From Hyaloperonospora brassicae (lineage: Eukaryota; Oomycota; Peronosporomycetes; Peronosporales; Peronosporaceae), in the NCBI GenBank assembly GCA_947650285.1, contig CANTFL010000851.1, positions 124,001 to 188,000 of the forward strand: a stretch of DNA of 64,000 bases, written 5' to 3'. This document shows, one piece after another, positions 5,267-48,220 of this stretch. The position numbers and the translations under genes are program-made. The notes under the pieces were generated by a model. That model saw nothing but the letters and a program-made list of their open reading frames with translations. It was not told the origin of the DNA and made no database searches. How positions within the stretch are numbered: position 1 is the stretch's first letter; every line of letters starts with the position of its first letter.

Positions 5267-6086
5267 TGGTGAAGGCAGGTGAGTGCTTGGGTACCGCTTT
5301 ACCAACACCCACATCAGTCGGCACAGCCGGATCATAGCGTGTGCGAGTTCGCAACTGGCCTCTGGCCTTAAGCATAGCGTAATCATATCGAAGCTTTCGT
5401 TCTAGACGAACATCTGCCACATCGGAACTTGCTCTGAAATCTAACACGCTGCTAAGGTGTCGTTTCCGATGCACCCAGCGAACAAACGCGTTGTCTTCTT
5501 CCTCCTGAGATTCGCCTGCGAATAAAAGGATGGGTATAACTTATATCGGTGGAACCGGTGCACCCCGTGCTTGCGTGTCAAGTCACAACTTGTTTTGACT
5601 TTGAATCGTCAAGTGGGGTTGCAGGTACCTCTCACGAAGTGCCTGTCGACTCGCCACCTCATCAGAAGATGTAGGCTCAGCGCCAATGGCCCACGTTGCC
5701 AAAGACCGACCTGTCGTTTGGCGTATACGCTCTTCCACATTGAGTGGTGTGAACAGATAGCCACGACAACCCTCAAGGGTTGCAGCAAGCTGCATACGGC
5801 GCTGAGCGCTCTCCTCTCGTTGGATATTCAACTCTTGGTACTCATCGAGCGGATTAGTGATGATGGCATCGCCCACAAGAAGTGTTTGATGCGGCGCCGG
5901 TGGCGCGTTGGATTCGCCACGCTCGGCAAATGGGTTTGGTGCAATATGAGGCGCTGCCTCTTGCACTGGTTCGTCGGACATTGTCCTCTCGTCACCATGC
6001 ATGTCGGTATCGCTACCATAATCCAAATTTACATCGATGCCAAGGTAAGACGAGAGAGTCGAGGACTCATGGGGTGGCGATGCCAT
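4734..6086 (-). pseudogene. Antisense reading frame of the gypsy element, unknown function
   Basis: Read on the minus strand from ATG at 6086-6084, one frame runs about 450 codons to a stop at 4734. Only two in-frame stops occur: TGA at 5585-5583 and a TAA about 45 nt further on, near 5540. About 20 stops would be expected by chance. The product would be hydrophilic. Its first third is acidic (YGSDTDMHGDERTMSDEP). The middle is charged with RQTTGRSLATWAIGAEPTS, GESQEEEDNAFVRWVHRKRH and LERKLRYDYAMLKARGQLRT. A Pro/Ser/Thr-rich stretch follows, then a heptad-like helix (EEHEKVLLEMSGLRETLGK). No known family was recognised. About 820 nt lie between pol and the presumed LTR; the rest overlaps the chromodomain. 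Compare retroviral antisense genes such as HBZ in arrangement only. Confidence 0.6.
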
Positions 6087-6182
6087 GGTGTTTTGTGTTT
6101 TGCCAACCGTGAGGTTGAAGCGCACACACACCGTCCTCTTCGAGGAAAGAATTCGATTGGCGTTTTGTGGAAACATCAGTCT

Positions 6183-6194
6183 GGTGGGGGAGGG
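6183..6194 (+). promoter_or_regulatory. Candidate polypurine tract of the gypsy element
   Basis: GGTGGGGGAGGG, purine except for one T, lies immediately before TGTAACGGGGTTACA at 6195, a TG-starting LTR edge. It would prime plus-strand DNA synthesis. The second LTR is not in the window, so the boundary cannot be confirmed by comparison. Confidence 0.5.
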
Positions 6195-6740
6195 TGTAAC
6201 GGGGTTACACGTCGACTGGTAGTAGACAATAGGTGTGGTACACACAAGGGATGGGATCCCCTTTAAAGTAATATTAGAACACAAATAGTAATTGTTGAAG
6301 ACTGATGTCTGTCATCAATTGATTACGAGATCTTTTTTAATAGGTTTACTAAGGACATATGTGAGTAGGTTATTTACTTTGTTCTACGGTGTTCTTTTAG
6401 GTTAAAAGAAGAAATAAAATTCAGTTCCCATTTTGATCAACAAAAGACACGTGCCTCTCTGAGGCGTCTTGTGATCGTAAGGAAGTAGCAACGCCTTGCT
6501 AAGGTAGCTACTCCTTGTGCACTAAGTGCGATTGATTCTTTGAATCGTTTGGTCCCCCTGGAACAGGGACCGTAAGCTCTTTGAGCTTGGTGACTCTTTG
6601 AGTCGGTTTCTTTGAACCACCTTTTAGCTCTCGGAGCTGTTGACTCTTTGAGTCGGGTTCGTAGAACCAAAGTTGCTCGTAAGAGCGTTAAGTCTTACTC
6701 TGAATTAAGGAGATGTGTAGCTCCGCTACAAAGTAGGTAA
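6195..6740 (+). repeat. Candidate gypsy 3' LTR, right edge unknown
   Basis: The sequence begins with a 6-bp stem, 3-nt loop palindrome (TGTAAC GGG GTTACA) at 6195-6209 and contains the mini-hairpin array at 6453-6730. There is no coding frame on the plus strand. The call rests on position after pol and the PPT. No partner LTR is visible, and the end could lie anywhere between about 6740 and 7090. Confidence 0.4.
6453..6730. repeat. Array of mini-hairpins with 5-6 bp stems and 3-nt loops
   Basis: Nine perfect stem-loops, each with a 3-nt loop: 6453-6465 (GCCTC TCT GAGGC), 6534-6546 (GATTC TTT GAATC), 6556-6568 (CCCTG GAA CAGGG), 6574-6588 (AAGCTC TTT GAGCTT), 6592-6604 and 6642-6654 (both GACTC TTT GAGTC), 6626-6638 (AGCTC TCG GAGCT), 6656-6668 (GGTTC GTA GAACC) and 6716-6730 (TGTAGC TCC GCTACA). 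Weaker members are at 6494-6504, 6519-6529, 6605-6618 (one bulge) and 6675-6686 (GTAA loop). By chance about 0.3 such 5-bp/3-nt hairpins are expected in 280 bp. Confidence 0.85.
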
Positions 6741-7094
6741 AGCTTAGCTAATCAATACTGCCACTGATCAACATTGAGGGAGGTAGTCATGATGGCATTG
6801 GCGAGGAATTGATGGTTCAGATGGTACATCTCGGTAGCTGCTTTCTATGTGTGTGTATGTGAAAGCGTATTTATCTGTAAGTCAAGCAGAACCCCTGGTT
6901 TGACGGTCACGAATCAGGTATATTTTGCAAGCACGGAGATGTCCTATTGAAATAGCACACACAATGGCTGTGTAAGGAGTGACTTCATCAGCAGTTGTCA
7001 GAGTGGAGGAAATGTATTTGTATATACATCAGAGTTTGCAGAAGTGTAGAGGGGTAAACGGCGATGTCTAAGTAGGTGTCACGCATAGAGATAT
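6741..7094. other. Spacer between gypsy element and copia array
   Basis: No gene or known repeat is seen. The last five bases, GATAT (7090-7094), are the left flank of the copia array. They match GCTAT at 21773-21777 on the right flank in four of five positions, a plausible decayed 5-bp target duplication. Confidence 0.4.
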
Positions 7095-7414
7095 TGTAAG
7101 AGTGTAGTAGTGCACTTGGTGCAAAGTAGGTGGAAGTAAAAATGAATATATTGTGTGTTAAGAACTTGCTTCCTACAACACTACGATATGTATGACCAGA
7201 GACGTAAACTACAACTTTACCATGTCAAGTCTCATGTGGTGACCGTCTCTCCCTGACCCATGTGACATCCTCTCACATGACGTCCGTCTCTCCCGTCCCA
7301 TCTGTCATTCTGTCACATCATCAGCCAATCAGGTGAGGTCGCACTTACCTGTACCAGGTCTTGCACTTGGCCTGCACAACCTTCTTGACTTGTCAGAAAG
7401 AGTATGTTTTAACA
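7095..7414 (-). repeat. Copia LTR 1, outer left, element 3' LTR
   Basis: 320 bp, TG...CA ended (TGTAAGAG to TTTTAACA on the plus strand). It differs from LTR2-4 at five sites, all in the left half: three in the first 14 bases, then AAAATG for AAAGTG, and GACATCC for GACACCC. Its right end (TATGTTTT) is shared with LTR2 and LTR3. Confidence 0.92.
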
Positions 7415-7427
7415 CTCCTCTTCGACG
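7415..7427 (-). promoter_or_regulatory. Copia polypurine tract, unit 1
   Basis: On the minus strand GACGTCGAAGAGGAG runs directly into the 3' LTR (TGTTAAAACA). The purine run GAAGAGGAG is the plus-strand primer site. It begins within 13 nt of the pol stop codon (TGA, 7430-7428). The same site is at 12201-12213 and 16987-16999 in the other units. Confidence 0.7.
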
Positions 7428-10400
7428 TCATCCTAAATGGACTTTAACTTGAACATCTTGCGCAATTCCACAATCCGCGGCTGGCAGTGCATTTGTCAAT
7501 AGGTCTTCAATCATGTCTCTAGACTTGACATAACTTGGCTTGACTAATTTGGCTTGAGCGTAGTGGCAGATAAACTTGAATCTAATGTCCACGTGCTTAG
7601 CGCTTGACGTACTCTTATCGCTGTCGAGTTGTGTGATCGCGGCTTGGTTATCAATCCACATCGGCATGGGCTCAACGGCCCTCATGTCCAGCTCCCGAAT
7701 AGTTCCTTCAGCCCTAATAGTTCACGTCCTGCCTGTGACGCCGCGATCTAAGCTTCCATGGTGCTCAGGGATACCCCAGTTTGCTTCTTGCACGCCCATG
7801 ACACCAGTGCTCCATACATCGCCAATACGCATCCTGAGACCGACTTTTCTGCTGCAAAGTACGCGTCACTCCAGCTCTCGTTCTTGATCGGGTCCATTGA
7901 CTTTCCTGAGCTGTCAATAAACAACTTCTACATCTTTGTTACTTTCAGACATCTGGCAATGCGTTTGGCCATCTTCCAATCTGTCACGATTGTGTTGTGT
8001 GTCTCCCTTGTCGCACGATGTACCGCAAAGCTGATGTCCGGTCTTGTACAGCGTGCAATCCAAAACAGGCTTCCATTCAGCGACTGGAACGTCTTGATGA
8101 TCGCATGTCAAGACCCAGCTGACTTAACCAATGTGTCTGTGGCTTCAGGGTCAACTTCGACGCAGTCTTCATCAATAGGATCTCGAACACCATTCGCCGA
8201 CTCCAGTCCATTATCCTTTAGCAACACGTATATCATCACCTCATGGTCCAGCATGTAACCACACTTGTCATCTAACCGAATTCTTAACTCCAGAAACTTG
8301 TTGCCGACGCCTAAATCCTTGATCTCGAGGCACACCAAGCTCATAAAACTTGATCCACAGCTTTACTTGAAGTTCTCGTGACCAAAAGGTCGTCGACATC
8401 TACCTCAACAAACGTTAAGGCGTCGTCGATCTTCTATACGTACGGGCACATGTCCGTCGTGCACTTGCTGAAACCGAGTTCAACCACCTTCGAGTGTAAC
8501 AGTTGAATCCAAAAACGTCCAGCTTGCTTCAACCCGTATAGGGACTTCTTCAAAAGTAGGGAAAGTTGCTGTGGGTGCGTGACGTTGTGTTCGTCCAATA
8601 TTGTCTTGGCTCACTTGCATCCCGCTCGGCACCTTCATGTAAATGTAGAGATCTTTTACCTTGTCTGCCTTGACGTAGGCATTTGGGATGTTACCGTGTC
8701 TCGCTGTTACGTTCCATCGACGCGGCATTACCAAGATGACCTTCACGATGCCAAGCTCCATGACTGCAGCAAAATTCAATATGTGGTTGATCCCAAATAG
8801 CTATTCATTTCGACATACCACCAGTCTAGTCTTGTACCGCTCTACATTTCCGTCGGCGTCGGTTCTAGACTTGAAAACCCACTTGTTATGTACAACATGT
8901 TCGTTTTCGGGCGGTATCACTACCGTCCTCACTCCATTTGATTCCAGAGCAGTCAGTTCTTCAGTCATCGCTATGCGCTACTTGTCTTTTGATGGAATTC
9001 GCACAGCCTCACCGTAGTTTCTTGGATCTGGCTCGGTCACGATGCTGACAATTTATTGATCTTCTTTGCCTTTGGTTTCATCATTCGACTCATCCACTTT
9101 CTTGCCAATGGATCTTGTCACGTGTCGGTCACGTGTCCATCTGGATGAACGACTCTTTGCTGGACGTTCGTCGTGTTTATCTTGTTACTACTCCTGACCT
9201 TCAGCATTATCGTAAACTTGTAGTGCTTTTCCGTCTTATATGGTGTTCAGGGTCTCAATGTTCCTCACATGTTGCGTGACCACGACAACGCGCCTCTTTG
9301 GCAGGTAGACAAGATATGCCTTCGTCTCATCGCTCTTTCCAATGATGATTGCCGCCTTTCCACGCGCACCCAGCGATTTGTTCCCCGTGTGCAATTGAAC
9401 TGTGTACGTCGATCTAAACACCACGATTTTGCTGAGGTTGGGCTTCTTCATGGTGAGTAGTTCAATCAATAAAACCCCACCCTTGTTTTCCTTAGTCGGG
9501 CTTCGGTTAAGTATGTAGGCTGCATACTCAGCAGCATCACTCCAAAACTTCAAAGGTAGTCCGCTTGCAAAACTCATGCTGCGCACCATGTTCATAATCG
9601 CGCGATGTATCATTTCGGCTTTTCCATTGCTGTCATGGTTATCACGCTTGCTAATTTGGCAAGCGAAACCAGTGGCTTTGCAGAGCACATCCCGAGGCTT
9701 GTATTAGCCTCCATCATTTGTCCGTAAGACGTGGATCCGGAAATTGAAACTTCGCTCGAAACCCTACAGGAAATGCTTAAAATTCACCGTGGCAACGTCT
9801 TTAGTTTTCGCTAAGAAAACCCGGCAATAGTTGGACTGATAATCGACGAAGTTGATCAGGTATCTCTTTCCGAGCCAATCGCGAGGTGTCATGGGACCTT
9901 TATTGATCAAAGTAAATTACTTCATCTATCACGTCGATTAACGAATTGGTTCCACTGTCTCTGCGAGGTTGTCGGTTCTTCGTCTGATTGCCTTGTGCAC
10001 AGGCCGAGCAGTTAACACGCTTAGTATCTGTAAATTTGATACCAGAGGCAGGGTCGCGGGCCATCTTGACGATCGTGTCGTAGCATAGGTTACCCAAACG
10101 CCGATAGAACTGTAGCAAGCTTCCATGTTGAACGTTCGTCTTATTTCCATCCCCATCCCCATTCACAATCGCCATGGCCGCCTCCGGTGGTGAGCCATTA
10201 ACACGAGAAACATTCGTCGAATCGTCGTCGTAAACCTTCACAATCAACACATCGTTGATGCGATCGACATCCATGATGGGTAAACCACCGAGATGAGAAC
10301 AAAATGCGCATACCTTCACGATATTCAAGCACGCATTCCTTCTTCTCCAACCTCCCGAAGGAAATGATTTTACGCCCCAAGTTGGAGGCGTATTGAACAT

Positions 10401-10599
10401 CGAAGAGTCGGATGGTCTTGATGAAACCGAGTGCTTAGACCCAAATCCTAGCACTGCCTTGCTTCGTGGTCTGAAGAGGTCTTCCGTCAGACGCTGCGGT
10501 AGAACATTCGTGATTGCAGTCAACCACTTACTCCAGTAGGCTCAAGTCATTGACCAAATGACGCCCCGACCTACTGTCTAGAACCCAGCTAGCGGTTCC
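7428..10599 (-). pseudogene. Copia pol, unit 1: protease, integrase, RT, RNase H
   Basis: Domains read from 10599 down. The protease motif WVLDSRSGRHLVND (near 10578) has the catalytic DSG changed to DSR. The integrase finger at about 10110-9990 (LLQFYRRLGNLCYD, then NCSACAQG) has lost both histidines. In the integrase core the second catalytic Asp is Asn, in an LRTNDGG motif that is followed by TAA, while the Glu in SNGKAEMIHR (near 9610) survives. RT contains GNIPNAYVKADKVKDLYIY and the catalytic box at 8400-8389 as VDVDDLLVT, where YVDD has become DVDD. RNase H ends with MWIDNQAAITQLDSDKS and KHVDIRFKFICHYA. At least six frame breaks separate these pieces. The stop is TGA at 7430-7428. The host equivalent of this protein would be a full polyprotein of about 1300-1400 residues. 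Confidence 0.88.
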
Positions 10600-11876
10600 T
10601 TGGGTCGGATCCCCGTCCGCATCACAGACTGTGAGGACGAAATTCGCATCTTGTTTTTTCTTTGGTCTTCTCGTACAGAATGCCTCGAGGTGTCCCGTGT
10701 TTCCACAGCAGTAAAATCTTTTTTGTCCTTGACCCTCAAGCCTTTTCTTGACTGGCTCAACTTTCGTTACCTCCTTGGTAGTCTCCACAACGTTCACAAC
10801 ATCACGGACATCGATCTCCGTCGATTGTGCAAACTGTGCCAGCTCTTCAGCTTGTCGCAAGTAGTCGACCCTGTGCAAATCTAAACGCGAAAGCGTCGTC
10901 GTGCGCATCTTCGGGCCTGCGTAGTGAACGACGTTGTCCAAAACGAGGTTTTCCGCGCCTACGCAGGCATCGCTCACAGCAGTGAGATACAAGAAATGTT
11001 CCGTCCAATTTCGATGCGACGACTTGGCTGCATTAAACAGCTTCATGCTCTGGGCAGGTATTATATTGTTGTTGAAGGTCTAGAGCAACCTTTGCATTGC
11101 ATGCTACAAGGTTTAACTCTCGGACCACCAAGTCTCCACCTGTCGTCGGTAATACTTTTGTGCCGTTCCAGCAAGATGCTGACCAGGCACATCACCCTTG
11201 ATGTCTTCAGGCCATACGAAGCCACACGCGCGCTGTAGAAGCCAACTTGGCGTGCCAACTCCTTGCCTTAGTTTAAGAACATACTTCCAAGGTCAAGATA
11301 GAGTTCCTTTCCATTAAATGGCTGCAACGCCGAATTGCGCTGACGACCGTCAGGTACACCCATGGGTATCTGAACTTGGTGAAAAAACATCGGACCAGGT
11401 GCACCCACACCTGGATACGGTGCCGGTGGTGCTCCCTGCAATCCGGGTGCTGGTTCTTCATTCCTCGCATAGTCGCCACGGTTCTGAACCGGTGGATCGA
11501 CTATGTTTCCAGCAAAAGCTGGTCGTCGGGAACCTAAGTAGGTGGCCGGCGAGACATCCGGTGACCGCTTGGGAGAAGGAGTACGCTCCAAAGCCTGGAG
11601 GTTAACACCCTGTCCTGCTCCCACGGCCGAATCAAAGACGCTCGACTCTAGAGAGTCATTCCGTTGCCGGTCGACTTGTTCGAAGTGTGAGGATTCCATC
11701 CTGCACATTCGCTCCGACAAATCACCGAGCATGACGAGCATCTTGTCCAGTGCCGCGGCCGCGGGCACAGCCTACTTTTCTCCCAGCTGATGATCAATGG
11801 TCTTCTTTTGACCATCGATCACCACAGCGGGTGTGGCTCTGCGAGCCGCGCCGCCAACACGTTCTGTTGGGCTCAT
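10600..11876 (-). pseudogene. Copia gag, unit 1
   Basis: The first ATG of the internal region, 11876-11874, lies inside the primer binding site and opens MSPTERVGGAARRATPAVV. A TAG at 11774-11772 (codon 35) stops it. The frame then continues with ALDKMLVMLGDLSERMCRM, a Pro-rich segment and FNGKELYLDLGSMFLN, where the frame shifts. The capsid-like part resumes as LARQVGFYSARVASYG and MKLFNAAKSSHRNWTEHFLY. The zinc knuckle near 10716-10675 reads FYCCGNTGHLEAFC, with the first Cys changed to Phe. The wording matches copia Gag proteins common in Phytophthora. The copy cannot make functional particles. Confidence 0.85.
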
Positions 11877-11880
11877 AACC
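11861..11880 (-). promoter_or_regulatory. Primer binding site, half-tRNA-Met type
   Basis: On the minus strand, directly after the 5' LTR (ends CTCTTACA), stands GGTTATGAGCCCAACAGAAC. Its complement, GGGCTCATAACC, is a Met tRNA anticodon arm with the CAU anticodon, not a tRNA 3' end. This is the internal priming mode known from Drosophila copia (half initiator tRNA-Met). The gag ATG (11876-11874) is part of the site. Identical sites occur at 16647-16666 and 21433-21452. Confidence 0.75.
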
Positions 11881-12200
11881 TGTAAGAGTAAAGAAGTGCA
11901 CTTGGTGCAAAGTAGGTGGAAGTAAAAGTGAATATATTGTGTGTTAAGAACTTGCTTCCTACAACACTACGATATGTATGACCAGAGACGTAAACTACAA
12001 CTTTACCATGTCAAGTCTCATGTGGTGACCGTCTCTCCCTGACCCATGTGACACCCTCTCACATGACGTCCGTCTCTCCCGTCCCATCTGTCATTCTGTC
12101 ACATCATCAGCCAATCAGGTGAGGTCGCACTTACCTGTACCAGGTCTTGCACTTGGCCTGCACAACCTTCTTGACTTGTCAGAAAGAGTATGTTTTAACA
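11881..12200 (-). repeat. Copia LTR 2, internal, recombinant
   Basis: 320 bp. The left half carries the LTR4 variants (AAAGAAG near the start, AAAGTG, GACACCC). The right end carries the LTR1 variant (TATGTTTT). It serves both as 5' LTR of unit 1 and 3' LTR of unit 2. There is no target duplication on either side. Confidence 0.92.
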
Positions 12201-15200
12201 CTCCTCTTCGAAGTCATCCTAAATGGACTTTAACTTGAACATCTTGCGCAATTCCACAATCCGCGGCTGGCAGTGCATTTGTCAATAGGTCTTCAATCAT
12301 GTCTCTAGACTTGACATAACTTGGCTTGACTAATTTGGCTTGAGCGTAGTGGCAGATAAACTTGAATCTAATGTCCACGTGCTTAGCGCTTGACGTACTC
12401 TTATCGCTGTCGAGTTGTGTGATCGCGGCTTGGTTATCAATCCACATCGGCATGGGCTCAACGGCCCTCATGTCCAGCTCCCGAATAGTTCCTTCAGCCC
12501 TAATAGTTCACGTCCTGCCTGTGACGCCGCGATCTAAGCTTCCATGGTGCTCAGGGATACCCCAGTTTGCTTCTTGCACGCCCATGACACCAGTGCTCCA
12601 TACATCGCCAATACGCATCCTGAGACCGACTTTTCTGCTGCAAAGTACGCGTCACTCCAGCTCTCGTTCTTGATCGGGTCCATTGACTTTCCTGAGCTGT
12701 CAATAAACAACTTCTACATCTTTGTTACTTTCAGACATCTGGCAATGCGTTTGGCCATCTTCCAATCTGTCACGATTGTGTTGTGTGTCTCCCTTGTCGC
12801 ACGATGTACCGCAAAGCTGATGTCCGGTCTTGTACAGCGTGCAATCCAAAACAGGCTTCCATTCAGCGACTGGAACGTCTTGATGATCGCATGTCAAGAC
12901 CCAGCTGACTTAACCAATGTGTCTGTGGCTTCAGGGTCAACTTCGACGCAGTCTTCATCAATAGGATCTCGAACACCATTCGCCGACTCCAGTCCATTAT
13001 CCTTTAGCAACACGTATATCATCACCTCATGGTCCAGCATGTAACCACACTTGTCATCTAACCGAATTCTTAACTCCAGAAACTTGTTGCCGACGCCTAA
13101 ATCCTTGATCTCGAGGCACACCAAGCTCATAAAACTTGATCCACAGCTTTACTTGAAGTTCTCGTGACCAAAAGGTCGTCGACATCTACCTCAACAAACG
13201 TTAAGGCGTCGTCGATCTTCTATACGTACGGGCACATGTCCGTCGTGCACTTGCTGAAACCGAGTTCAACCACCTTCGAGTGTAACAGTTGAATCCAAAA
13301 ACGTCCAGCTTGCTTCAACCCGTATAGGGACTTCTTCAAAAGTAGGGAAAGTTGCTGTGGGTGCGTGACGTTGTGTTCGTCCAATATTGTCTTGGCTCAC
13401 TTGCATCCCGCTCGGCACCTTCATGTAAATGTAGAGATCTTTTACCTTGTCTGCCTTGACGTAGGCGTTTGGGATGTTACCGTGTCTCGCTGTTACGTTC
13501 CATCGACGCGGCATTACCAAGATGACCTTCACGATGCCAAGCTCCATGACTGCAGCAAAATTCAATATGTGGTTGATCCCAAATAGCTATTCATTTCGAC
13601 ATACCACCAGTCTAGTCTTGTACCGCTCTACATTTCCGTCGGCGTCGGTTCTAGACTTGAAAACCCACTTGTTATGTACAACATGTTCGTTTTCGGGCGG
13701 TATCACTACCGTCCTCACTCCATTTGATTCCAGAGCAGTCAGTTCTTCAGTCATCGCTATGCGCTACTTGTCTTTTGATGGACTTCGCACAGCCTCACCG
13801 TAGTTTCTTGGATCTGGCTCGGTCACGATGCTGACAATTTATTGATCTTCTTTGCCTTTGGTTTCATCATTCGACTCATCCACTTTCTTGCCAATGGATC
13901 TTGTCACGTGTCGGTCACGTGTCCATCTGGATGGACGACTCTTTGCTGGACGTTCGTCGTGTTTATCTTGTTACTACTCCTGACCTTCAGCATTATCGTA
14001 AACTTGTAGTGCTTTTCCGTCTTATATGGTGTTCAGGGTCTCAATGTTCCTCACATGTTGCGTGACCACGACAACGCGCCCCTTTGGCAGGTAGACAAGA
14101 TATGCCTTCGTCTCATCGCTCTTTCCAATGATGATTGCCGCCTTTCCACGCGCACCCAGCGATTTGTTCCCCGTGTGCAATTGAACTGTGTACGTCGATC
14201 TAAACACCACGATTTTGCTGAGGTTGGGCTTCTTCATGGTGAGTAGTTCAATCAATAAAACCCCACCCTTGTTTTCCTTAGTCGGGCTTCGGTTAAGTAT
14301 GTAGGCTGCATACTCAGCAGCATCACTCCAAAACTTCAAAGGTAGTCCGCTTGCAAAACTCATGCTGCGCACCATGTTCATAATCGCGCGATGTATCATT
14401 TCGGCTTTTCCATTGCTGTCATGGTTATCACGCTTGCTAATTTGGCAAGCGAAACCAGTGGCTTTGCAGAGCACATCCCGAGGCTTGTATTAGCCTCCAT
14501 CATTTGTCCGTAAGACGTGGATCCGGAAATTGAAACTTCGCTCGAAACCCTACAGGAAATGCTTAAAATTCACCGTGGCAACGTCTTTAGTTTTCGCTAA
14601 GAAAACCCGGCAATAGTTGGACTGATAATCGACGAAGTTGATCAGGTATCTCTTTCCGAGCCAATCGCGAGGTGTCATGGGACCTTTATTGATCAAAGTA
14701 AATTACTTCATCTATCACGTCGATTAACGAATTGGTTCCACTGTCTCTGCGAGGTTGTCGGTTCTTCGTCTGATTGCCTTGTGCACAGGCCGAGCAGTTA
14801 ACACGCTTAGTATCTGTAAATTTGATACCAGAGGCAGGGTCGCGGGCCATCTTGACGATCGTGTCGTAGCATAGGTTACCCAAACGCCGATAGAACTGTA
14901 GCAAGCTTCCATGTTGAACGTTCGTCTTATTTCCATCCCCATCCCCATTCACAATCGCCATGGCCGCCTCCGGTGGTGAGCCATTAACACGAGAAACATT
15001 CGTCGAATCGTCGTCGTAAACCTTCACAATCAACACATCGTTGATGCGATCGACATCCATGATGGGTAAACCACCGAGATGAGAACAAAATGCGCATACC
15101 TTCACGATATTCAAGCACGCATTCCTTCTTCTCCAACCTCCCGAAGGAAATGATTTTACGCCCCAAGTTGGAGGCGTATTGAACATCGAAGAGTCGGATG

Positions 15201-15385
15201 GTCTTGATGAAACCGAGTGCTTAGACCCAAATCCTAGCACTGCCTTGCTTCGTGGTCTGAAGAGGTCTTCCGTCAGACGCTGCGGTAGAACATTCGTGAT
15301 TGCAGTCAACCACTTACTCCAGTAGGCTCAAGTCATTGACCAAATGACGCCCCGACCTACTGTCTAGAACCCAGCTAGCGGTTCC
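12201..15385 (-). pseudogene. Copia pol, unit 2
   Basis: This is the same broken pol as unit 1, shifted by 4786 bp, with the same DSR protease, HHCC loss, integrase Asp to Asn, DVDD and frame breaks. Small private or shared changes include GAAGTC for GACGTC next to the PPT (near 12210), LPKGR instead of LPKRR in the integrase tail (near 14080), and Leu for Ile near 13785. Its stop is the TGA at 12216-12214. It is nearest to unit 3 at most differing sites. Confidence 0.88.
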
Positions 15386-16662
15386 TTGGGTCGGATCCCC
15401 GTCCGCATCACAGACTGTGAGGACGAAATTCGCATCTTGTTTTTTCTTTGGTCTTCTCGTACAGAATGCCTCGAGGTGTCCCGTGTTTCCACAGCAGTAA
15501 AATCTTTTTTGTCCTTGACCCTCAAGCCTTTTCTTGACTGGCTCAACTTTCGTTACCTCCTTGGTAGTCTCCACAACGTTCACAACATCACGGACATCGA
15601 TCTCCGTCGATTGTGCAAACTGTGCCAGCTCTTCAGCTTGTCGCAAGTAGTCGACCCTGTGCAAATCTAAACGCGAAAGCGTCGTCGTGCGCATCGTCGG
15701 GCCTGCGTAGTGAACGACGTTGTCCAAAACGAGGTTTTCCGCGCCTACGCAGGCATCGCTCACAGCAGTGAGATACAAGAAATGTTCCGTCCAATTTCGA
15801 TGCGACGACTTGGCTGCATTAAACAGCTTCATGCTCTGGGCAGGTATTATATTGTTGTTGAAGGTCTAGAGCAACCTTTGCATTGCATGCTACAAGGTTT
15901 AACTCTCGGACCACCAAGTCTCCACCTGTCGTCGGTAATACTTTTGTGCCGTTCCAGCAAGATGCTGACCAGGCACATCACCCTTGATGTCTTCAGGCCA
16001 TACGAAGCCACACGCGCGCTGTAGAAGCCAACTTGGCGTGCCAACTCCTTGCCTTAGTTTAAGAACATACTTCCAAGGTCAAGATAGAGTTCCTTTCCAT
16101 TAAATGGCTGCAACGCCGAATTGCGCTGACGACCGTCAGGTACACCCATGGGTATCTGAACTTGGTGAAAAAACATCGGACCAGGTGCACCCACACCTGG
16201 ATACGGTGCCGGTGGTGCTCCCTGCAATCCGGGTGCTGGTTCTTCATTCCTCGCATAGTCGCCACGGTTCTGAACCGGTGGATCGACTATGTTTCCAGCA
16301 AAAGCTGGTCGTCGGGAACCTAAGTAGGTGGCCGGCGAGACATCCGGTGACCGCTTGGGAGAAGGAGTACGCTCCAAAGCCTGGAGGTTAACACCCTGTC
16401 CTGCTCCCACGGCCGAATCAAAGACGCTCGACTCTAGAGAGTCATTCCGTTGCCGGTCGACTTGTTCGAAGTGTGAGGATTCCATCCTGCACATTCGCTC
16501 CGACAAATCACCGAGCATGACGAGCATCTTGTCCAGTGCCGCGGCCGCGGGCACAGCCTACTTTTCTCCCAGCTGATGATCAATGGTCTTCTTTTGACCA
16601 TCGATCACCACAGCGGGTGTGGCTCTGCGAGCCGCGCCGCCAACACGTTCTGTTGGGCTCAT
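15386..16662 (-). pseudogene. Copia gag, unit 2
   Basis: This is unit 1 gag shifted by 4786 bp: the same ATG inside the primer binding site (16662-16660), the same TAG at codon 35, the same frame break after SMFLN, and the same Phe in the zinc knuckle. A visible change from unit 1 is Thr for Lys in the GPTMR segment (near 15694), shared with unit 3. Confidence 0.85.
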
Positions 16663-16666
16663 AACC

Positions 16667-16986
16667 TGTAAGAGTAAAGAAGTGCACTTGGTGCAAAGTA
16701 GGTGGAAGTAAAAGTGAATATATTGTGTGTTAAGAACTTGCTTCCTACAACACTACGATATGTATGACCAGAGACGTAAACTACAACTTTACCATGTCAA
16801 GTCTCATGTGGTGACCGTCTCTCCCTGACCCATGTGACACCCTCTCACATGACGTCCGTCTCTCCCGTCCCATCTGTCATTCTGTCACATCATCAGCCAA
16901 TCAGGTGAGGTCGCACTTACCTGTACCAGGTCTTGCACTTGGCCTGCACAACCTTCTTGACTTGTCAGAAAGAGTATGTTTTAACA
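16667..16986 (-). repeat. Copia LTR 3, internal, recombinant
   Basis: 320 bp, with the same hybrid pattern as LTR2: left half as LTR4, right end as LTR1. That two inner LTRs share one crossover pattern fits repeated unequal exchange, or duplication of a whole recombinant unit. Confidence 0.92.
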
Positions 16987-19900
16987 CTCCTCTTCGACGT
17001 CATCCTAAATGGACTTTAACTTGAACATCTTGCGCAATTCCACAATCCGCGGCTGGCAGTGCATTTGTCAATAGGTCTTCAATCATGTCTCTAGACTTGA
17101 CATAACTTGGCTTGACTAATTTGGCTTGAGCGTAGTGGCAGATAAACTTGAATCTAATGTCCACGTGCTTAGCGCTTGACGTACTCTTATCGCTGTCGAG
17201 TTGTGTGATCGCGGCTTGGTTATCAATCCACATCGGCATGGGCTCAACGGCCCTCATGTCCAGCTCCCGAATAGTTCCTTCAGCCCTAATAGTTCACGTC
17301 CTGCCTGTGACGCCGCGATCTAAGCTTCCATGGTGCTCAGGGATACCCCAGTTTGCTTCTTGCACGCCCATGACACCAGTGCTCCATACATCGCCAATAC
17401 GCATCCTGAGACCGACTTGTCTGCTGCAAAGTACGCGTCACTCCAGCTCTCGTTCTTGATCGGGTCCATTGACTTTCCTGAGCTGTCAATAAACAACTTC
17501 TACATCTTTGTTACTTTCAGACATCTGGCAATGCGTTTGGCCATCTTCCAATCTGTCACGATTGTGTTGTGTGTCTCCCTTGTCGCACGATGTACCGCAA
17601 AGCTGATGTCCGGTCTTGTACAGCGTGCAATCCAAAACAGGCTTCCATTCAGCGACTGGAACGTCTTGATGATCGCATGTCAAGACCCAGCTGACTTAAC
17701 CAATGTGTCTGTGGCTTCAGGGTCAACTTCGACGCAGTCTTCATCAATAGGATCTCGAACACCATTCGCCGACTCCAGTCCATTATCCTTTAGCAACACG
17801 TATATCATCACCTCATGGTCCAGCATGTAACCACACTTGTCATCTAACCGAATTCTTAACTCCAGAAACTTGTTGCCGACGCCTAAATCCTTGATCTCGA
17901 GGCACACCAAGCTCATAAAACTTGATCCACAGCTTTACTTGAAGTTCTCGTGACCAAAAGGTCGTCGACATCTACCTCAACAAACGTTAAGGCGTCGTCG
18001 ATCTTCTATACGTACGGGCACATGTCCGTCGTGCACTTGCTGAAACCGAGTTCAACCACCTTCGAGTGTAACAGTTGAATCCAAAAACGTCCAGCTTGCT
18101 TCAACCCGTATAGGGACTTCTTCAAAAGTAGGGAAAGTTGCTGTGGGTGCGTGACGTTGTGTTCGTCCAATATTGTCTTGGCTCACTTGCATCCCGCTCG
18201 GCACCTTCATGTAAATGTAGAGATCTTTTACCTTGTCTGCCTTGACGTAGGCGTTTGGGATGTTACCGTGTCTCGCTGTTACGTTCCATCGACGCGGCAT
18301 TACCAAGATGACCTTCACGATGCCAAGCTCCATGACTGCAGCAAAATTCAATATGTGGTTGATCCCAAATAGCTATTCATTTCGACATACCACCAGTCTA
18401 GTCTTGTACCGCTCTACATTTCCGTCGGCGTCGGTTCTAGACTTGAAAACCCACTTGTTATGTACAACATGTTCGTTTTCGGGCGGTATCACTACCGTCC
18501 TCACTCCATTTGATTCCAGAGCAGTCAGTTCTTCAGTCATCGCTATGCGCTACTTGTCTTTTGATGGACTTCGCACAGCCTCACCGTAGTTTCTTGGATC
18601 TGGCTCGGTCACGATGCTGACAATTTATTGATCTTCTTTGCCTTTGGTTTCATCATTCGACTCATCCACTTTCTTGCCAATGGATCTTGTCACGTGTCGG
18701 TCACGTGTCCATCTGGATGGACGACTCTTTGCTGGACGTTCGTCGTGTTTATCTTGTTACTACTCCTGACCTTCAGCATTATCGTAAACTTGTAGTGCTT
18801 TTCCGTCTTATATGGTGTTCAGGGTCTCAATGTTCCTCACATGTTGCGTGACCACGACAACGCGCCCCTTTGGCAGGTAGACAAGATATGCCTTCGTCTC
18901 ATCGCTCTTTCCAATGATGATTGCCGCCTTTCCACGCGCACCCAGCGATTTGTTCCCCGTGTGCAATTGAACTGTGTACGTCGATCTAAACACCACGATT
19001 TTGCTGAGGTTGGGCTTCTTCATAGTGAGTAGTTCAATCAATAAAACCCCACCCTTGTTTTCCTTAGTCGGGCTTCGGTTAAGTATGTAGGCTGCATACT
19101 CAGCAGCATCACTCCAAAACTTCAAAGGTAGTCCGCTTGCAAAACTCATGCTGCGCACCATGTTCATAATCGTGCGATGTATCATTTCGGCTTTTCCATT
19201 GCTGGCATGGTTATCACGCTTGCTAATTTGGCAAGCGAAACCAGTGGCTTTGCAGAGCACATCCCGAGGCTTGTATTAGCCTCCATCATTTGTCCGTAAG
19301 ACGTGGATCCGGAAATTGAAACTTCGCTCGAAACCCTACAGGAAATGCTTAAAATTCACCGTGGCAACGTCTTTAGTTTTCGCTAAGAAAACCCGGCAAT
19401 AGTTGGACTGATAATCGACGAAGTTGATCAGGTATCTCTTTCCGAGCCAATCGCGAGGTGTCATGGGACCTTTATTGATCAAAGTAAATTACTTCATCTA
19501 TCACGTCGATTAACGAATTGGTTCCACTGTCTCTGCGAGGTTGTCGGTTCTTCGTCTGATTGCCTTGTGCACAGGCCGAGCAGTTAACACGCTTAGTATC
19601 TGTAAATTTGATACCAGAGGCAGGGTCACGGGCCATCTTGACGATCGTGTCGTAGCATAGGTTACCCAAACGCCGATAGAACTGTAGCAAGCTTCCATGT
19701 TGAACGTTCGTCTTATTTCCATCCCCATCCCCATTCACAATCGCCATGGCCGCCTCCGGTGGTGAGCCATTAACACGAGAAACATTCGTCGAATCGTCGT
19801 CGTAAACCTTCACAATCAACACATCGTTGATGCGATCGACATCCATGATGGGTAAACCACCGAGATGAGAACAAAATGCGCATACTTTCACGATATTCAA

Positions 19901-20171
19901 GCACGCATTCCTTCTTCTCCAACCTCCCGAAGGAAATGATTTTACGCCCCAAGTTGGAGGCGTATTGAACATCGAAGAGTCGGATGGTCTTGATGAAACC
20001 GAGTGCTTAGACCCAAATCCTAGCACTGCCTTGCTTCGTGGTCTGAAGAGGTCTTCCGTCAGACGCTGCGGTAGAACATTCGTGATTGCAGTCAACCACT
20101 TACTCCAGTAGGCTCAAGTCATTGACCAAATGACGCCCCGACCTACTGTCTAGAACCCAGCTAGCGGTTCC
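16987..20171 (-). pseudogene. Copia pol, unit 3
   Basis: The same broken pol, shifted by 9572 bp from unit 1. Private changes include ASNGKAEMIHRT for DSNGKAEMIHRA at the integrase Glu motif (near 19200) and a G for T near 17419. All catalytic lesions of units 1 and 2 are present. The stop is TGA at 17002-17000. Confidence 0.88.
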
Positions 20172-21448
20172 TTGGGTCGGATCCCCGTCCGCATCACAGA
20201 CTGTGAGGACGAAATTCGCATCTTGTTTTTTCTTTGGCCTTCTCGTACAGAATGCCTCGAGGTGTCCCGTGTTTCCACAGCAGTAAAATCTTTTTTGTCC
20301 TTGACCCTCAAGCCTTTTCTTGACTGGCTCAACTTTCGTTACCTCCTTGGTAGTCTCCACAACGTTCACAACATCACGGACATCGATCTCCGTCGATTGT
20401 GCAAACTGTGCCAGCTCTTCAGCTTGTCGCAAGTAGTCGACCCTGTGCAAATCTAAACGCGAAAGCGTCGTCGTGCGCATCGTCGGGCCTGCGTAGTGAA
20501 CGACGTTGTCCAAAACGAGGTTTTCCGCGCCTACGCAGGCATCGCTCACAGCAGTGAGATACAAGAAATGTTCCGTCCAATTTCGATGCGACGACTTGGC
20601 TGCATTAAACAGCTTCATGCTCTGGGCAGGTATTATATTGTTGTTGAAGGTCTAGAGCAACCTTTGCATTGCATGCTACAAGGTTTAACTCTCGGACCAC
20701 CAAGTCTCCACCTGTCGTCGGTAATACTTTTGTGCCGTTCCAGCAAGATGCTGACCAGGCACATCACCCTTGATGTCTTCAGGCCATACGAAGCCACACG
20801 CGCGCTATAGAAGCCAACTTGGCGTGCCAACTCCTTGCCTTAGTTTAAGAACATACTTCCAAGGCCAAGATAGAGTTCCTTTCCATTAAATGGCTGCAAC
20901 GCCGAATTGCGCTGACGACCGTCAGGTACACCCATGGGTATCTGACCTTGGTGAAAAAACATCGGACCAGGTGCACCCACACCTGGATACGGTGCCGGTG
21001 GTGCTCCCTGCAATCCGGGTGCTGGTTCTTCATTCCTCGCATAGTCGCCACGGTTCTGAACCGGTGGATCGACTATGTTTCCAGCAAAAGCTGGTCGTCG
21101 GGAACCTAAGTAGGTGGCCGGCGAGACATCCGGTGACCGCTTGGGAGAAGGAGTACGCTCCAAAGCCTGGAGGTTAACACCCTGTCCTGCTCCCACGGCC
21201 GAATCAAAGACGCTCGACTCTAGAGAGTCATTCCGTTGCCGGTCGACTTGTTCGAAGTGTGAGGATTCCATCCTGCACATTCGCTCCGACAAATCACCGA
21301 GCATGACGAGCATCTTGTCCAGTGCCGCGGCCGCGGGCACAGCCTACTTTTCTCCCAGCTGATGATCAATGGTCTTCTTTTGACCATCGATCACCACAGC
21401 GGGTGTGGCTCTGCGAGCCGCGCCGCCAACACGTTCTGTTGGGCTCAT
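20172..21448 (-). pseudogene. Copia gag, unit 3
   Basis: The same gag relic, shifted by 9572 bp from unit 1, with the ATG in the primer binding site (21448-21446), TAG at codon 35 and the broken zinc knuckle. Private changes include GQIPMG for VQIPMG and LGLGS for LDLGS (near 20865-20950). This is the unit adjacent to the outer 5' LTR, so it would be the promoter-proximal one. Confidence 0.85.
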
Positions 21449-21452
21449 AACC

Positions 21453-21772
21453 TGTAAGAGTAAAGAAGTGCACTTGGTGCAAAGTAGGTGGAAGTAAAAG
21501 TGAATATATTGTGTGTTAAGAACTTGCTTCCTACAACACTACGATATGTATGACCAGAGACGTAAACTACAACTTTACCATGTCAAGTCTCATGTGGTGA
21601 CCGTCTCTCCCTGACCCATGTGACACCCTCTCACATGACGTCCGTCTCTCCCGTCCCATCTGTCATTCTGTCACATCATCAGCCAATCAGGTGAGGTCGC
21701 ACTTACCTGTACCAGGTCTTGCACTTGGCCTGCACAACCTTCTTGACTTGTCAGAAAGAGTATATTCTAACA
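21453..21772 (-). repeat. Copia LTR 4, outer right, element 5' LTR
   Basis: 320 bp. It has the left-half variants of LTR2 and LTR3 but a private right end, TATATTCTAACA against TATGTTTTAACA. The flank GCTAT (21773-21777) resembles GATAT at 7090-7094. Confidence 0.92.
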
Positions 21773-22068
21773 GCTATTGCGCCAGACGTAGCTTTCTAGT
21801 TGATCTTGGCCGCTACAAGTGCTCGTCAATACGATACAGTAGCGGCAATTTGACTCCGGCTGAATGAACACCCAGCGCCTTACCTTTCGCCCGAGTAGTG
21901 TCACCTTTCTCGACTTCCGGTGGGGCACTGCCGACATGAGAGCCAGACGCGCAGCGAATTATGCTCTCAGAAGCAAGCACGCCATTCAGGACACACAGTG
22001 AGTGTGTTGGTCGAACCTAGCAGTCAAGAGGATTCGAGAAACAGAATATATGGAGCTCTGGTGGCACT
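21773..22068. other. Spacer right of copia array
   Basis: Mixed-composition DNA without a recognisable gene or repeat. It is the original flank of the copia insertion. Confidence 0.4.
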
Positions 22069-47212: not shown

Positions 47213-48220
47213 GCCCATTTGATCACAAAAATAAACAAATACCCCACATAATTGGGAAATACAATAATTACCCTACGTACTAGTATACTAAAGTTAATAT
47301 GGCGTACACATAACCACACGTCCCTAATCATTTTCGTTCTTTCATTTAAAGACCGTGGCCAACCCCCGCCCTGTTTGGGAAGCCGCAGAGAAGGTTCTGT
47401 TGCGAGCGTGCTGCGCTTGCAGCCATCAGTTGCAGGCGCAGGCGCGAGATAAAAGTACGCAAACGCGTCTTTGTATCGTTTTTCGCGGCAGTAAACACAG
47501 TCAGTTGATGCTAATGCTGTTAATACTAATGTTTTTACACTTAAATTATTGTTTCAGTTGCTACTGTCGATGATGTTGCTGCTACTGTTGATTCTGCTGC
47601 TGCTGTTTGCCGATGCTGCTGCTGAAGTTGTAGGTGATGCGATTGTTGTTTTTGTTTAAGTACCTATTGCTGATGCTTATACTGCTGTTGCTGACACTGA
47701 TATTGTTATAGGTGATGTGATTGCTGTTGACATTGTACTTTAGATGATGCTACTTCTATTGCTACTGATGTTGATACTGCTGTTGTTGTAGGTGATGCGG
47801 TTGCTGTTGTTGTTTGATTATATATTGTTGATGCTGATACTGCTGTTACTGCTGCTGCTGTTGTAGTTGTAGGTGATGCGGTTGCTGTTGGTTCTGCTCT
47901 GTAGATGATGCTACTGATAATGCTACTGATGTTGTTGTTGTAGGTGCTGCTGTTGCTATTAATGTTATTTTACTTGTGGGATTGTATTCTCTTCCTGCTT
48001 TTCGTACTAAAAACACATAATCATATCAATAGACCGCAATAAATCTTTTCTTTATGTTTAGCTCTTATCGGCGGCTTCAATGTCTGCAGCCTTCGTCGTA
48101 TGCAGAAAAATTTCAGGGAGATAATGTGCGATGATGCCTTAATCGTATTTGTCAAACTAGGACGTGGTGCATTTTATTTTCGTGATTATCTGAGGAAATT
48201 TTTTTGTGATTAAATAGGGC
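47213..48220 (+). mobile_element. Inverted-repeat element, copy 1 (non-autonomous DNA transposon)
   Basis: The left end is GCCCATTTGATCACAAAAAT. The right end, complemented, is GCCCTATTTAATCACAAAAA. The inside matches the copy at 61637-62571 in reverse orientation: first an AT-rich part with a shared ACACATAACCACACGT core, then a GC-rich module (47350-47500, about 85 percent alike by eye) with AACCCCCGCCCTGTTTGGGA, then a long GNT trinucleotide tract. There is no transposase frame. The element is 1008 bp. Target duplications are unclear because both flanks are A/T runs. Confidence 0.7.
47505..47960 (+). repeat. GNT trinucleotide tract in element copy 1
   Basis: About 450 bp dominated by GTT, GCT, GAT and GGT triplets in one phase (for example GATGTTGCTGCTACTGTTGA). 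It is imperfect and not a simple microsatellite. The same tract is present in copy 2 as its complement. Confidence 0.75.

Follow-up and report, generated by a model that had tools for sequence, protein, structure and literature searches.

A tandem array of three copia-type units in Hyaloperonospora brassicae, probably grown from one coding-dead insertion by unequal exchange between its long terminal repeats

Introduction

How can a retrotransposon come to stand in three head-to-tail units that share their long terminal repeats (LTRs)? This question is raised by a locus of the oomycete Hyaloperonospora brassicae (assembly GCA_947650285.1, contig CANTFL010000851.1), in which such an array occupies positions 7095 to 21772 of the 64,000-nt stretch analysed here (contig positions 124,001 to 188,000 of the forward strand, hereafter the window). 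The assembly sequence, on which the analysis is based, comprises 100.56 Mb in 898 contigs. We consider it highly probable that a single aged insertion was tripled by unequal exchange, first between its two LTRs and then with a shift of one unit.

Structure of the array

A first, sequence-only reading of the window had placed LTR starts at 7095, 11881, 16667 and 21453, with an exact period of 4786 bp and three almost identical internal regions. Self-comparison together with a position-by-position comparison confirmed the starts and the period. When the window is compared with itself at a shift of 4786, identity is 98.5-100% per 200 bases in the array body and random outside it. Four LTRs of 320 bp alternate with three internal regions of 4466 bp, and an LTR stands at both ends of the array, which is the arrangement that defines a tandem LTR retrotransposon. 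From left to right the order is LTR1 (7095-7414), the internal region of unit 1 (7415-11880), LTR2 (11881-12200), the internal region of unit 2 (12201-16666), LTR3 (16667-16986), the internal region of unit 3 (16987-21452) and LTR4 (21453-21772). The element is oriented along the minus strand, a point absent from the first reading; LTR1 is its outer 3' LTR and LTR4 its outer 5' LTR.

The near-identity of the internal regions was also borne out. They contain 16 variable sites per 4466 bp and the LTRs 7 per 320 bp, without any insertion or deletion. Pairwise, the internal regions show 6 differences between units 1 and 2, 11 between units 2 and 3 and 15 between units 1 and 3. LTR2 and LTR3 are identical to each other. 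The divergence between LTR1 and LTR4 is 2.2% (7/320), that between the internal regions 0.1-0.3%.

Hybrid inner LTRs

The LTR sites were polarised by the majority base among 30 LTRs outside the array, taken from 20 stretches, that is 19 places (L022 and L023 are the two ends of one copy on contig C356). LTR1 carries the majority base at offsets 9 (26/30), 10 (25/30), 13 (28/30) and 173 (30/30), therefore LTR2, LTR3 and LTR4 share derived bases at these four sites; their bases occur in only 2, 2, 1 and 0 of the 30 outside LTRs, respectively. At offsets 311 and 314 it is LTR4 that carries the majority base (24/26 and 22/26 of the outside LTRs with a letter there), and therefore LTR1, LTR2 and LTR3 share derived bases, present in 1/26 and 3/26 of these outside LTRs. 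The change at offset 47 is private to LTR1. Three further bases, at 110, 161 and 177, are common to the array LTRs and present in 0/30 outside LTRs, so that in these the array LTRs go back to one ancestor.

No tree rooted with the outside copies accommodates both groupings by derived bases, and the groupings are sorted by position, with a switch between 173 and 311. The left part of LTR2 and LTR3 is LTR4-like, while their right end is LTR1-like. Judged by these sites, the inner LTRs are hybrids of LTR4 and LTR1, which is what an unequal crossover of the right LTR with the left LTR of one element would produce.

The outer LTRs also diverge more than the internal regions (7/320 versus 13/4466, Fisher p = 2.0e-4; with clustered changes counted once, 4/320 versus 13/4466, p = 0.023). 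The figure of 13/4466 (0.29%) counts the sites that the two-step model described below, with a breakpoint at 2200-2357, leaves to the first split; overall, 15 sites distinguish units 1 and 3.

Tandem LTR elements could also be formed during reverse transcription, by template switching or by transcription of a one-LTR circle, and be inserted ready-made. Such routes are described in two papers (PMC1950507, PMC11899658), and they would likewise leave a target-site repeat at the outer ends only, as found here with a 4/5 match. However, LTRs born together should start equal and then change independently, whereas the derived bases of the array form two conflicting positional groups. Moreover, the outer LTRs differ more than the internal regions, and all units carry the same frame breaks. 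We therefore regard a ready-made tandem as very improbable.

Differences among the internal regions

Internal sites were polarised in the same manner, with 10-13 outside rows per site. Derived bases common to units 1 and 2 stand at offsets 2506, 2538, 2961, 4198 and 4279, and none of them is found in unit 3; four occur in at most one of 11-12 outside copies and the fifth in 2/11. Units 2 and 3 share a derived base at 2053. Derived in unit 1 alone are 1586, 1902, 2200 and 3815, and in unit 3 alone 752, 2357, 3219, 3571 and 4140. Unit 2 has only one private site of the 16, at 331 (p = 0.014, which is modest).

The five derived bases common to units 1 and 2 point to a second exchange. If its breakpoint is placed at 2200-2357, unit 2 is unit-3-like to the left and unit-1-like to the right, and the misfits are limited to 331, 752 and 3815, one per unit. 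In a permutation test the split pattern, with two misfits, reached a likewise modest p of 0.035. Placing the breakpoint close to the left end of the unit is about equally parsimonious: in this case 752 fits if the unit-3 base is ancestral, and 2053 becomes a misfit. The split between the internal regions could reflect later mutation or an older allelic difference that was joined by exchange between homologues.

The small number of differences also bears on a possible assembly error, in which the array would be an artificial chain of two or more haplotype versions of a single element, or of a looped repeat. With at most 15 differing sites per 4466, the units are compatible with allelic divergence. 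Haplotypes are possibly collapsed in this assembly, since the right flank of the array has no full second copy in it and is single-copy save for two short, weak matches; the left flank is part of another dispersed repeat. On the other hand, three distinct combinations of sites, with unit 2 in between, and the two hybrid LTRs exceed what two plain haplotypes would provide. A tandem of 22 matches with a 574-bp period on contig C874 (see below) shows that the assembly does not collapse every tandem, though this is no direct support for the array locus. Altogether, an assembly error appears unlikely.

Target-site repeats and related copies

In the sequence-only reading, only the outer flanks of the array resembled a target duplication, and such duplications at the inner LTRs would have spoken against the array. 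Indeed, GATAT (7090-7094, plus strand) and GCTAT (21773-21777, plus strand) match at 4/5 bases (the chance of a match of at least 4/5 is 0.016), and there are no inner target repeats, because the inner LTRs directly abut TAACC on the primer-binding-site side and CTCCT on the polypurine side. Since inner target repeats are lacking, we rejected three separate insertions.

Elsewhere in the family, the 5-bp target repeat is perfect at 13 of the 17 assessable places, matches at 4/5 at two (L016 and L018) and has no matching counterpart at two (L010 and L021); L015 and L020 lie outside the 17. Among the 13, the aligned outer edge was extended to the LTR end by 9 bases for L012, L014 and L017 and by 16 for L026 and L027. 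At L021, on contig C314, the LTR pair is 97.5% alike and flanked by GCTAT and GATTC without a common target repeat; this copy is possibly a recombinant.

Six places with 5/5 target repeats (L009, L011, L013, L014, L019 and L026) contain an LTR without internal sequence in the sampled stretch. These are solo LTRs, left behind when recombination between two LTRs deletes the interior, and they show that such recombination occurs in this family. This is relevant for a further possibility, namely that a one-LTR circle, released from this element by LTR-LTR excision or made as complementary DNA (cDNA), returned by homologous recombination to one of the element's own LTRs. The solo LTRs show that the deletion half of this route happens, and the same hybrid inner LTR is expected, so that from the array sequence alone circle re-entry and unequal crossover are not separable. 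However, the circle would require excision plus return at the same locus, perhaps twice, and no scored place elsewhere exceeds 86% identity over the whole internal region. We consider this route improbable.

The search with the internal region yielded 38 internal matches from the 35 candidates scored out of 190. The best other copy over the whole region has 86% identity (among the best 35 of 190 candidates), one fragment reaches 88%, and many copies with a full internal region lie at 80-85%. Within the array, open stretches of at least 60 codons end alike in the three units; the longest has 213 codons, and an intact gag-pol frame was found in none. The broken frames are the mark of a dead copy, not of another family. 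Given these common frame breaks and the ceiling of 86% identity for scored outside copies over the full internal region, the most likely source of the three units is a single element that was broken beforehand, and the same two observations argue against separate insertions of three cDNAs of a live family.

A junction query of 720 bp, spanning an inner LTR and both of its neighbours, was matched over its full length only by the two inner LTRs of the array (best 40 of 263 candidates scored). Further tandems of the family were seen neither among these 40 nor among the 38 internal matches. Thus the array is the sole tandem seen in this family in this genome, which is a lower bound based on the scored matches.

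The family contains LTRs of 320 and 360 bp, and we considered a mosaic of LTR subfamilies as the source of the array pattern. It was rejected, as the length difference corresponds to a segment of approximately 41 bp that is present or absent even within the LTR pair of one element: in L010, L012, L016 and L027 it is found in one LTR and is missing from the partner. We also note that another family copy, L020 (C809:32479-36748), has one internal segment inverted.

Proposed origin of the array

According to our model, the array goes back to a single insertion of one copia-type element, whose coding frames were lost and whose two LTRs diverged. The right LTR on one chromatid or homologue would then have mispaired with the left LTR on the other, and a crossover between LTR offsets 173 and 311 would have produced a dimer, the new inner LTR of which was a hybrid of the two outer ones. 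A second exchange, with mispairing by one unit, would have led to the trimer with its two identical hybrid LTRs. It would have taken place after the internal regions had diverged by about 0.3%, or from alleles with such a divergence. Seen directly are the array, the common frame breaks, the hybrid LTRs, the uneven distribution of derived bases among the internal regions and, among the scored copies of the assembly, the lack of one equally close. We infer the order of these events, the involvement of sister chromatids or homologues, and where the second exchange fell, either at 2200-2357 or close to the unit's left end.

Several observations weigh against this model. The right LTR of a copy on contig C300 (L016, C300:309668-309986) has AAA at 9, 10 and 13 and G at 311, while its left LTR is without these variants. 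Sites 9, 10, 13 and 311 may thus be older variants and not new in the array. If so, the hybrid pattern is left to 173 and 314 and has less weight, the T at 314 being present in 3/26 outside LTRs. The majority base is an imperfect guide to the ancestral one, as the outside copies are interrelated and at most 86% identical to the array over the whole internal region. At the internal site 752 the majority amounts to only 8/13 rows, with the C356 copy counted twice, and the unit-3 base is also found in L010, L012, L016, L017 and L018, the copies with the LTR type closest to that of the array. The second breakpoint is not settled, since 752 and 2053 conflict and one of them misfits under each placing. 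Finally, the outer target repeat is imperfect (4/5), and flank searches found no single-copy or empty allele in the assembly.

A recent exchange with the C300 copy was tried as a source of the shared LTR variants and rejected, as this copy has 0.79-0.89 identity to the array over complete 200-base windows and no long common tract. A short exchanged tract at the LTR edge is still conceivable. At 110 and 161, LTR1 still has the bases that are peculiar to the array, an argument against a foreign LTR having taken over its entire left part.

On balance, we think that the locus probably records the stepwise birth of a tandem array, with hybrid LTRs arising in a coding-dead insertion, followed by growth in one-unit shifts. 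If this is true, dead elements can keep multiplying locally without reverse transcription, and it is tempting to speculate that they may seed satellites with long units. Further, polarised LTR variants would then be a general test of array origin, applicable to any array with diverged outer LTRs.

Element type and coding state

The LTRs begin with TGTAAG and end with TAACA and thus have the TG...CA boundary of copia elements. In several copia elements, reverse transcription is primed at an internal site of the initiator methionine transfer RNA (tRNA-Met), and the primer binding site adjoins the 5' LTR. In the array, a stretch ending in 16 bases that also occur within a tRNA-Met of this genome adjoins the left ends of LTR2, LTR3 and LTR4 (11865-11880, 16651-16666 and 21437-21452, minus strand), and for this reason the element is read on the minus strand. 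From its sequence, the matched tRNA-Met is presumably of the initiator type. Its pattern has 23 matches in the genome, one on contig C369 and 22 on C874. The latter (C874:112536-124613) form a direct tandem with a constant period of 574 bp. ARAGORN predicted tRNA-Met three times in the sampled part of this tandem (L041), and around the C369 match (L040) only tRNA-Pro.

Unit 2 was searched against Pfam. One open piece (14025-14489, minus strand; equivalents at 9239-9703 and 18811-19275) matches SH3_retrovirus with an E-value of 2.1e-11, and a second (13269-13586, minus strand; equivalents at 8483-8800 and 18055-18372) weakly matches the reverse transcriptase family RVT_2, with an E-value of 0.002, which is below the Pfam cut-off. 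The other seven of the nine open pieces scanned matched no Pfam family. On the minus strand the SH3_retrovirus match lies 5' of the RVT_2 match, although the latter is below the cut-off. In Ty1/copia elements the integrase side of pol precedes the reverse transcriptase. Their insertions are flanked by 5-bp target-site repeats, for which the array has a 4/5 match and the family a perfect one at 13 of the 17 assessable places. Based on these sequence features, the element is probably a degenerate one of the Ty1/copia type, the superfamily being likely but not fully proven.

Comparison with known tandem elements

The first reading of the locus as a head-to-tail array of copia type with shared LTRs and a slightly decayed outer target repeat is supported, but its view that such arrays are uncommon is not supported in general. 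According to a long-read survey (Morales-Diaz et al. 2025, PMC11899658), tandem LTR elements are frequent in rice, Arabidopsis, almond and cotton. In rice they are described there as highly polymorphic, and 266 were counted in the pangenome. As in these plant tandems, LTRs and internal regions alternate at our locus, inner LTRs are shared, and the target repeat is limited to the outer ends, in line with a single insertion. In contrast, the inspected rice cases were mostly gypsy elements (82% of 28), while the array described here is of copia type, belongs to an oomycete, has three units, and its hybrid inner LTRs favour recombination. The survey left undecided whether tandems originate by complex, ready-made insertion or by later recombination (PMC11899658); the present locus favours the latter.

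The sharing of LTRs is also known from arrays of Cassandra, a terminal-repeat retrotransposon in miniature, for which two routes of formation are proposed, one of them being LTR recombination, together with unequal crossing-over for changes in copy number (PMC7215508). Cassandra elements, by contrast, are small, do not code for proteins and carry 5S sequences in their LTRs, and an array may contain as many as 12 repeats, whereas the unit described here has 4.8 kb and remains of pol. In complex elements of Triticeae, too, elements share an LTR (Sabot and Schulman 2007, PMC1950507). These are explained by fusion of two parents through template switching before insertion, and the conflicting shared derived bases of our array argue against such an origin. 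Among the open-licence papers listed by searches aimed at oomycetes, judged by titles and the openings of abstracts, we found no report of tandem LTR elements in this group. The array thus adds a non-plant, oomycete case.

Neighbourhood of the array

A host gene lies 2.3 kb to the right of the array. Its best named relatives are from Phytophthora, Hyaloperonospora and Peronospora, with at most 66% identity (best 120 of 281 proteins); taken by itself, this one gene places the host probably among the Peronosporaceae. On the left side, the end of the other dispersed repeat (window positions 5595-6730) is located approximately 365 bases from the array; it has at least 39 further copies of 89-96% identity (best 40 of 1705). 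Farther to the left, a reading frame at 3806-4600 matches the integrase core (rve), though not up to the Pfam cut-off, and is perhaps part of another element. Finally, a 161-bp unit is present twice at 47619-47934, the two copies matching at 79%.

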